A stretch of 45,653 bases of DNA, taken from Formosa sp. (GTDB taxonomy: Bacteria; Bacteroidota; Bacteroidia; Flavobacteriales; Flavobacteriaceae). The notes under the pieces were generated by a model. That model had not been told where the DNA came from, did no database searches, and was given only the letters and a program-made list of their open reading frames with translations. The stretch is taken from positions 1-45,653 of the forward strand of contig JABHDE010000031.1 of the NCBI GenBank assembly GCA_018673215.1. Reading direction: 5' to 3'. The translations under genes were made by a program, and so were the position numbers. Shown piece by piece: positions 13,415-14,868 of the stretch. The first letter of the stretch is position 1; every line of letters begins with the position of its first letter.

Positions 13415-13483
13415 GTGTTTATTATTTATAAAAGTTTACAGATAGACCTTAAGTTGTTTAATTAATTACTACTAATCGTAAAC

Positions 13484-13513
13484 AAAAAAAACCACTCATA
13501 GAGTGGTTTTTTT
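13484..13513. terminator. Bidirectional terminator between sucD and the Omp28-like gene
   Basis: CCACTC (13492-13497) and GAGTGG (13501-13506) form a hairpin with an ATA loop, flanked by an eight-A run on the left and a seven-T run on the right. Because both flanks give a U-run in the matching direction, it can stop transcripts from both converging genes. It sits 33 bases past the end of the minus-strand lipoprotein gene. Confidence 0.8.
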
Positions 13514-13545: not shown

Positions 13546-14868
13546 TTAATCAAATTCTTGCGTTTCACCAAGTTCAACTTTTTGTACGTTGTAAATATCG
13601 TAATGAGGCGAATTTGAATGAGTAGTACCGAAATAGTCAACAAAGGTTTTAGCATATGTATTTCTGACAAATGCGATGACTTTCAGGTTATTTATATCGT
13701 CTATATTAGATGGTAAATCAAGATCAATAAAGTTTCGTGTATAAACACAACCAGCAACTGCACTTGAAGCTTCAATAGCATCACCAAGTTGATCTGTATA
13801 AACTTCTCTTAAAACATCTTTGTGTACATAATTAACCCCTAGAGATGACCCAGATTGTGGGGTTGACGTTGTAACGTTATCTTCAATCAAATAAACCATT
13901 AACTGTACTTGTTCATTAGGCGTAGTGTTGAATCCAACATTTACTTCAATATTTAATTTTCCTGCAACAAGAGCAGTTTCAAGAGCTAAACCAACAGTTG
14001 CTGTTTCAGCCAACTCGCTATCTACTTGTCCCATATTTGGAAAATTCCAGCGTGTATCAGCACCATTTACATATACAGTAGGGAAGCCAGTGACATTGTA
14101 GTATGAAGACCAATAAGCCGTTTCAGGAATTTCCATAGGGTCGCCACCAACAGCATGATAACCGACTCCAAATATATTAGAATTACCACTCATCGCAGAC
14201 GCTATAGCAGAGGCAGCAGGTGGACATTGCGGACACCAAGTTCCAGTAAAATCTTCTAAAAGTACTTTCTTTGTGTAAGCTATAGGAGCTCCAGAATTGG
14301 GTGTTACTTCAAAAGATACTTCATTTGATGTTAATCCTTCGAAAGTTGCTACAAAATTATACGTACCATCTGCACTAAACTGAAATGGATTACTTGCAAC
14401 GCTACCATTGACAGTTACTTCGGCTTCCGATGTAATTGTATTATTAAAGTTGTCTAAAACTGTAAAGGAAGTTGTGTCTCCTGTGCTATAGCACACTTGA
14501 TTGAAACGAAGCTCAATACTAGAAGCTGGAATATCACTCACAGTAATAGTTAGTGTGTTAGATGTTAAATCATTGTAAGTAGCAGATACTTGGTAGGTTC
14601 CTTCTGAATTAAAATTTAAAGGATTTGAAAAGGACTGTCCGTCAACTTTTAAAGTAGATGAACTCGTTACGTCAGATGAGTTGTTTCCAGTTACCACAAA
14701 TGCAACTTGAGCACCCGTATTAACTTCAGTAGAAGCTGTAGTTAATGTAATTGAGGTTACCTCTTCATTTCCATTACCAGAACCTGAATCTCCACCGTCA
14801 TCACTAGCGGAACAACTTATAATTAAGAGTCCCAAAAGAAAAGATTTAAAGATATTTAATGTTTTCAT
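13546..14868 (-). CDS. Omp28-related lipoprotein with Ig-like repeats and a thioredoxin-like domain
   Basis: Secreted lipoprotein of 440 residues. The signal peptide ends at lipobox LIISC with Cys19; the following SASDDGGDSG is acidic, resembling the surface-export signal described for Bacteroidota lipoproteins. Two related Ig-like repeats follow (about 38-110 and 115-190), each with a phrase like NPFQFSADGTYNFVATFEGLTSN. The domain from about 198 on begins KKVLLEDFTGTWCPQCPPAA with a thioredoxin-type CPQC (Cys212/Cys215), then the Omp28-type region with GFPTVYVNGADTRWNF and YVHKDVLREVYTDQLGD. Probably an extracytoplasmic redox or metal-related lipoprotein; the exact role is unknown. Single gene with a bidirectional terminator downstream. 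Confidence 0.8.
   Translation of the reverse strand: MKTLNIFKSFLLGLLIISCSASDDGGDSGSGNGNEEVTSITLTTASTEVNTGAQVAFVVTGNNSSDVTSSSTLKVDGQSFSNPLNFNSEGTYQVSATYNDLTSNTLTITVSDIPASSIELRFNQVCYSTGDTTSFTVLDNFNNTITSEAEVTVNGSVASNPFQFSADGTYNFVATFEGLTSNEVSFEVTPNSGAPIAYTKKVLLEDFTGTWCPQCPPAASAIASAMSGNSNIFGVGYHAVGGDPMEIPETAYWSSYYNVTGFPTVYVNGADTRWNFPNMGQVDSELAETATVGLALETALVAGKLNIEVNVGFNTTPNEQVQLMVYLIEDNVTTSTPQSGSSLGVNYVHKDVLREVYTDQLGDAIEASSAVAGCVYTRNFIDLDLPSNIDDINNLKVIAFVRNTYAKTFVDYFGTTHSNSPHYDIYNVQKVELGETQEFD

Follow-up and report, generated by a model that had tools for sequence, protein, structure and literature searches.

An Omp28-family lipoprotein encoded in the window (the whole 45,653-nucleotide stretch of Formosa sp. 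DNA that was analysed) probably acts as the surface oxidoreductase in a thiol-disulfide module of three parts; its gene would have been relocated, while those of the other two components, a TlpA-like thioredoxin and a DUF6029 protein, lie elsewhere in the same genome. The Omp28/TlpA-like/DUF6029 association is clear in the genomes and new to the literature searched: among the literature matches listed, no title or abstract start suggested such a partnership.

The gene occupies positions 13546..14868 and, like all features of the window given below, lies on the minus strand. It encodes 440 amino acids plus a stop, starting from an ATG, and scores 82.4 bits against Pfam Omp28 (PF11551; cut-off 34.9). 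A terminator-like hairpin and T-run, read from the sequence by eye, lies on its 3' side (13480..13512). Residues 1–18 read as a lipoprotein signal peptide ending in IIS before the lipid-modified Cys19 (14812..14868). This cysteine is kept in 63 of the 65 aligned sequences, the remaining two being gapped there, and the lipoprotein call made in the earlier note holds. A linker rich in acidic, Gly and Ser residues, SASDDGGDSGSGNGN (14767..14811), leads into two Ig-like domains (residues ~36–113, 14530..14763, and ~114–195, 14284..14529). Both were placed by comparison of the repeats and by strands at residues 40–111 and 118–189 of an AlphaFold2 model built from 65 sequences (mean pLDDT 90.9, pTM 0.74), in which they form two all-beta stretches, as expected of the Ig-like tandem proposed before. 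The repeats are indeed alike, with a local score of 120 against 34.3 ± 6.4 for shuffled sequences (0 of 2000 shuffles as high). Pfam Ig models gave only sub-cut-off matches on the window protein (Big_13, 19.9 bits vs. 27). When the model was searched with Foldseek, the top match was 5y1a (HBP35), and matches two and three were segments of LigA, which we take to be Ig-like, at a TM-score of just 0.2 across the whole query.

A thioredoxin-type domain follows (residues ~198–290, 13999..14277; seen in the AlphaFold2 model and in a profile match) and carries the active-site CPQC (residues 212–215, 14224..14235), which agrees with the redox-type domain noticed earlier. The rest of the protein is a beta-rich C-terminal domain (residues ~291–440, 13549..13998), recognised from Pfam Omp28, most of whose model falls on it, from the AlphaFold2 model and from a profile match to 2r2c. 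AlphaFold2 secondary structure and the alignment (65/65) both place the CxxC-bearing thioredoxin-type domain before the Omp28 domain.

By its sequence, the window protein is a further member of a known family. Its best profile match among solved structures was Omp28 itself (2r2c) and the second was HBP35 (5y1a), both from Porphyromonas gingivalis. It shares the family of P. gingivalis Omp28, its closest solved-structure profile match, but adds two N-terminal Ig-like domains. With HBP35 it shares a thioredoxin-type domain and a domain that the Omp28 profile recognises, but it differs in being a lipoprotein with Ig-like spacers and no Por_Secre_tail in a Pfam search, and it was therefore not classed as a T9SS cargo. 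NCBIfam Omp28 lipoprotein NF033782 scored 74.6 bits against a cut-off of 150, so we kept the protein out of that subfamily; Omp28-related selenoprotein NF045500 scored 33.6 bits against 200.

The earlier note regarded the cell surface as an unusual place for a thioredoxin-like fold. That view does not stand, as there is a precedent in the same family: passages of PMC2907840 describe HBP35 as a glycosylated protein on the cell surface with measured thioredoxin activity, whose insulin reductase activity needs both cysteines and whose C-terminal residues are required for surface transport. The pneumococcal lipoproteins Etrx1 and Etrx2 are likewise of the thioredoxin family and surface-exposed, with a named redox partner, according to PMC3914529; unlike the window protein, they belong to a Gram-positive host, so without an outer membrane, and their partner is a methionine sulfoxide reductase. 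Because surface thioredoxins such as HBP35 are known, the window protein by itself is ordinary, and we ruled out novelty from the surface placement of the fold alone, for which HBP35 and T9SS-tailed Omp28 proteins are precedents.

The window protein is probably lipid-anchored to the outer membrane, most likely facing outward. The acidic patch invoked earlier in favour of surface exposure is present after the lipid-modified cysteine; it is modest, with two D/E residues in positions +2 to +8 that form a pair at +5/+6, and does not match the canonical export signal. The criterion for surface lipoproteins of Bacteroidota (LES) is acidic residues at about +2 to +5 after the lipid cysteine, and in SusD-like lipoproteins of the genus these residues stand mostly at +2 to +4. 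Across +2 to +8, the mean D/E count was 2.88 in SusD-like lipoproteins (17 distinct N-termini from 30 loci), 2.16 in Omp28 proteins (81 distinct) and 1.0 in BamD-like lipoproteins (6 distinct from 17 loci), these means including three N-termini whose cysteine is probably misplaced (L122, L132, L007). From this comparison and the published signal, SASDDGGDSGSGNGN may serve as a surface-export signal, although its acidic residues are not at the canonical place. The same offset from the SusD-like positions would suit a periplasm-facing thioredoxin lipoprotein whose acidic patch is no export signal, and passages of PMC5080379 indicate that the position of the acidic residues matters in Capnocytophaga. 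We nevertheless consider a periplasmic orientation unlikely. The two acidic residues exceed the BamD-like mean of 1.0 (6 distinct), the Ig-like spacers of the family range from 0 to 8 units, and HBP35 is on the surface (PMC2907840, in the passages cited above). Omp28 paralogues also bear T9SS tails: in six loci of the same family, every long Omp28 paralogue (10 of 10) ends in a type IX sorting tail, but only 2 of the 65 aligned sequences do.

We aligned the window protein with 64 of 78 references. Eleven positions are invariant in the 65 sequences (E205, T208, G209, T210, W211, C212, C215, H238, P263, E329 and N427), among them both active-site cysteines, whose lack of conservation would have spoken against the earlier reading. 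The CxxC was absent from 6 of 103 distinct relatives, namely L026 (two pieces), L028, L089, L100 and L014; L028 and L089 are cut at the sequence end, and the others are fragments only 24–168 residues long. Whole-gene dN/dS of omp28 was 0.11 against L031 and 0.14–0.16 against three others. The thioredoxin domain had the lowest dN of the four domains in 4 of 4 comparisons, with a dN/dS of 0.03 against L031, where synonymous sites are near saturation.

These data also bear on whether Omp28 proteins are instead surface ligand binders or adhesins, with a secondary CxxC and with DUF6029 transporting the ligand. Ig-like domains are common in adhesins, and residues outside the redox site are conserved in the C-terminal domain (E329 in 65/65, H349 in 61/65, R354 in 62/65). 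HBP35, moreover, is a hemin binder whose deletion slows growth when hemin is absent, according to passages of PMC2907840. The CxxC in 65 of 65 sequences and the low dN of the thioredoxin domain argue against a binding role, as does the replacement of Omp28 in one family by redoxin-type lipoproteins that keep the CxxC (see below), and we judge it improbable. Hemin binding as sole function was kept as a rival only.

The number of Ig-like units does vary among relatives, as the earlier note had asked to be checked, with 0, 1, 2 or 8 units per protein. Counted by length in 97 distinct proteins (99 rows minus L011, which is L172 cut short, and L028, which is part of that protein), 13 had none, 49 one, 34 two and 1 eight; an Ig profile backed 33 of the 34 two-unit proteins. 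This variability fits a spacer arm. The eight-unit relative (L172; G038:C1:2050700-2055200) spans 958 residues stop to stop, with the units followed by the thioredoxin domain.

Two further cysteines of the window protein, Cys126 in Ig-like domain 2 (14491..14493) and Cys374 in the C-terminal domain (13747..13749), are candidate disulfide partners that may staple these domains together. They co-occur in 3 of 65 sequences, never one alone at those columns, and look to have been gained or lost together among relatives (window protein, L031, L035). On the tree, this takes at least two joint changes, and 42 of 500 label shuffles gave a number equally low, a weak signal. L042 has a lone cysteine one column off Cys126, which speaks somewhat against strict pairing.

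The protein features described in the earlier note were for the most part right; the conserved association with TlpA-like and DUF6029 genes lay beyond its sequence-only view. Among clustered Omp28 genes we saw a divergent pair of genes, encoding a 160-residue TlpA-like thioredoxin and DUF6029, and in many Flavobacteriaceae this pair sits between an aldehyde dehydrogenase gene, which we take to be pruA (Pfam gives only Aldedh), and a gene that is presumably rsmG. Kordia, Bizionia and Xanthomarina are among the genera that retain the locus. Among the 60 Omp28 loci flanked by 3 kb or more in both directions, 54 had both partners. The six exceptions were L032–L034, which form the window's own subgroup, L071, L081 and L085. 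With any flank allowed (n = 79), 63 loci had both partners, 15 neither and 1 the TlpA-like gene alone; L099, which had no Omp28 ORF match, was left out, and L057 and L058 are one contig with the same Omp28 match. In the loci with both partners, Omp28 and the TlpA-like gene point away from each other in 60 of 63, and the TlpA-like and DUF6029 genes share a strand in all 63. The loci were collected by Omp28 similarity alone, so the neighbours were not chosen for; the neighbour profiles came from six genomes of the family, and overlap with the counted loci is possible. In loci L173–L178, a gene for a protein of ~240 residues separates DUF6029 from the secreted Omp28 genes; in L175, the one tested, this protein has a type IX tail.

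The 160-residue thioredoxin is above the Pfam cut-offs for AhpC-TSA, Redoxin and Thioredoxin. In L175 it fell under those of NCBIfam (ResA, the best match, 61.7 bits vs. 170; TlpA, 47.2 vs. 230), and we therefore call it TlpA-like. Both CxxC cysteines are kept in 78 of 78 sequences (those of 93 matches that were complete, long enough and distinct). Given its signal peptide, we infer that it is periplasmic. These Pfam matches, together with DsbD_TM genes in 18 of 18 genus genomes, recall the known TlpA/ResA/DsbE and DsbD systems; the module differs in having its conserved dithiol in a predicted outer-membrane barrel. Known carriers of the DsbD kind serve the inner membrane. With such a carrier in every genus genome, electrons could reach the periplasm, though this supply would not be module-specific.

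DUF6029 (PF19494) matched at 704 bits in L175 and at 629 bits in the window's own genome. A C-x4-C motif with the consensus GRQRGGLxCxGGxCR is present in 73 of 73 sequences (those of 99 matches that were complete, long enough and distinct) and in 36 of 36 ORFs from 40 further loci. An AlphaFold2 model from 55 sequences (pLDDT 88.3, pTM 0.84) has 24 strands of at least 8 residues, and the loops after odd strands have a median length of 15.5 residues vs. 4 on the other side (p 0.0004), which by the usual rule puts the long-loop side outside. The cysteines lie on that side, in the loop between strands 23 and 24, the last hairpin. The C-terminal residue is F, a common feature of outer-membrane barrels. 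All 50 matches listed by Foldseek were titled outer-membrane barrel proteins, including AlgE, pilus ushers, OprC and the Mtr complex, at low TM-scores (0.29–0.45 of the query). The model thus predicts a 24-strand outer-membrane barrel with the Cys pair on the extracellular side. A search by sequence found no solved DUF6029 structure; its matches to RecA look like artefacts and were set aside. Passages of PMC9603273 propose a possible role in polysaccharide secretion for DUF6029 from its similarity to Wzi-type barrels. That barrel and ours are of the same family, but those passages make no link to a Cys pair, Omp28 or thioredoxins. We kept polysaccharide export as background, since it leaves the Cys pair and the linked thioredoxins unexplained.

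Omp28 and DUF6029 also co-occur across genomes. With kinship ignored at every level, both were present in the same 10 and absent from the same 8 of 18 genus genomes, several of them incomplete (Fisher p 2.3e-5); among 199 family genomes, Omp28 occurred in 37, DUF6029 in 37 and both in 34 (p 2e-31); among 198 phylum genomes, the respective counts were 41, 55 and 38. As a control in the family sample, rhodopsin had 9 genomes in common with Omp28, where 8.4 were expected. The window's genome itself carries a rhodopsin gene (G000:C45:9459-10115).

The three family genomes with Omp28 only are all decayed. G029 has a stop in both Omp28 copies, and in G140 (L228) and G128 (L229) the module is gone from between pruA and rsmG, where the end of a long, CxxC-less Omp28 remains; L229 also holds a 27-residue match to the end of the Omp28 lipoprotein. 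DUF6029 only was found in G064 (intact), G084 (a fragment) and G086, which has a redoxin-type lipoprotein nearby. The G064 locus (L200) holds DUF6029 and the TlpA-like gene, preceded by a DUF3179 lipoprotein gene, and no surface thioredoxin was seen beside them. In the phylum sample, the Omp28-only genomes comprised two weak matches (G321, G351) and one strong one in G385, which lacks DUF6029 and whose contig ends inside the Omp28 gene.

Of the 17 phylum genomes with DUF6029 and without an Omp28 match, 16 came from one family (f36), and we examined loci from nine of these and from the remaining genome, G354. The latter does have an Omp28 with a type IX tail after DUF6029, above the cut-off and missed by the genome scan. 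In all nine f36 loci, a TlpA-like gene precedes DUF6029, which is followed on its own strand by a gene for a thioredoxin-like protein that begins like a lipoprotein (a simple search for a lipobox picked out seven; for L191 and L196 an internal start was read by eye). Seven of the nine also have a longer ORF of thioredoxin type (268–286 residues). The three lipoproteins tested (L190, L194, L197) matched Pfam Redoxin/AhpC-TSA, as did the two longer ORFs tested (L190, L194), which carry a type IX tail as well. On these matches, the place of Omp28 is taken in f36 by a thioredoxin from another Pfam family, in both lipoprotein and secreted forms. That another thioredoxin family takes this place is the strongest indirect sign of a shared surface redox function. 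A further thioredoxin-like ORF with the motif YADWCTYC was seen near the DUF6029 locus in L190, L191, L192, L196 and L197.

Collectively, these data suggest a module of three proteins: a periplasmic TlpA-like thioredoxin, a DUF6029 barrel with a C-x4-C hairpin, and a surface thioredoxin, here Omp28. The window protein would be a thiol-disulfide oxidoreductase anchored in the outer membrane and facing outward, its two Ig-like domains spacing the thioredoxin and C-terminal domains off the membrane. Its CPQC would most likely exchange disulfides with the extracellular-side hairpin of DUF6029, and the TlpA-like protein would serve DUF6029 from inside, before or after insertion. We infer the surface location, the barrel topology, the physical partnership and the direction of the reaction. 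Several points speak against the module: a periplasmic TlpA-like protein would not simply reach an extracellular hairpin, G064 and G385 each show one member of the pair without the other, 17 phylum genomes have DUF6029 and no Omp28 match, six of the 60 well-flanked loci have no DUF6029 close by, and the window gene is apart from its proposed partners. Sequence alone does not choose between DUF6029 as a client and DUF6029 as the middle step of a relay.

As a client, DUF6029 would have its C-x4-C disulfide set or repaired by TlpA-like and Omp28 proteins, with nothing crossing the membrane; the disulfide could serve folding or the opening of a redox-gated pore, and this account overlaps with the module favoured above. 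The invariant Cys pair in the last hairpin would fit such biogenesis, as would the thioredoxin genes that flank the barrel gene on either side or diverge from it, and TlpA, if periplasmic, could work on the barrel while it is still unfolded and not yet inserted. The presence of several surface-type thioredoxins at one locus, some of them T9SS-tailed, is not readily explained in this way, and we regard it as a serious possibility that nonetheless falls short of probable. A little more tentative still is a relay across the outer membrane, in which electrons or disulfides would pass from an inner-membrane carrier to the TlpA-like protein in the periplasm, then by way of the DUF6029 C-x4-C hairpin to the surface thioredoxins. 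Its end points would be Omp28 lipoproteins, T9SS-secreted Omp28 or, in another family, redoxins. To our knowledge, no such relay is known in any other outer membrane. If true, the relay would mean that Bacteroidota use enzymes to maintain a redox zone outside the cell. With its invariant dithiol and its genetic tie to thioredoxins that should lie to either side of the outer membrane, DUF6029 is a concrete and testable candidate for supplying electrons or oxidant to surface thioredoxins of outer-membrane bacteria, and the module gives this protein a function to look for.

The window's genome encodes all three components, Omp28 at C25 and the TlpA-like and DUF6029 proteins at G000:C16, where their genes lie between pruA and rsmG. 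The window omp28 is not adjacent to this pair; it stands between sucD and fabG. We assigned the names of its neighbours (lpxD-like, sucD, fabG) ourselves and ruled out a function drawn from them: among L001–L060, only same-genus genomes and the counterparts L031–L034 have this setting. Omp28 copies beside fabG were found in the window genome and in G002, G003, G006, G009 and G011. G006 and G009 also keep omp28 at the ancestral site (L024, L025). At that site, G002 and G011 have omp28 remnants with the central part missing, G003 has a 30-residue piece, and G000 has a weak 54-base match to the omp28 end (E 1.5e-4). Given these relics, the window gene most likely arose by relocation and has survived longer than the original copy. 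Within the genus, omp28 would have been copied to its place beside fabG, with decay of the ancestral copy in some lineages, which is why the partners are encoded elsewhere here (G000:C16). The low dN/dS of the window gene indicates that it is still in use.
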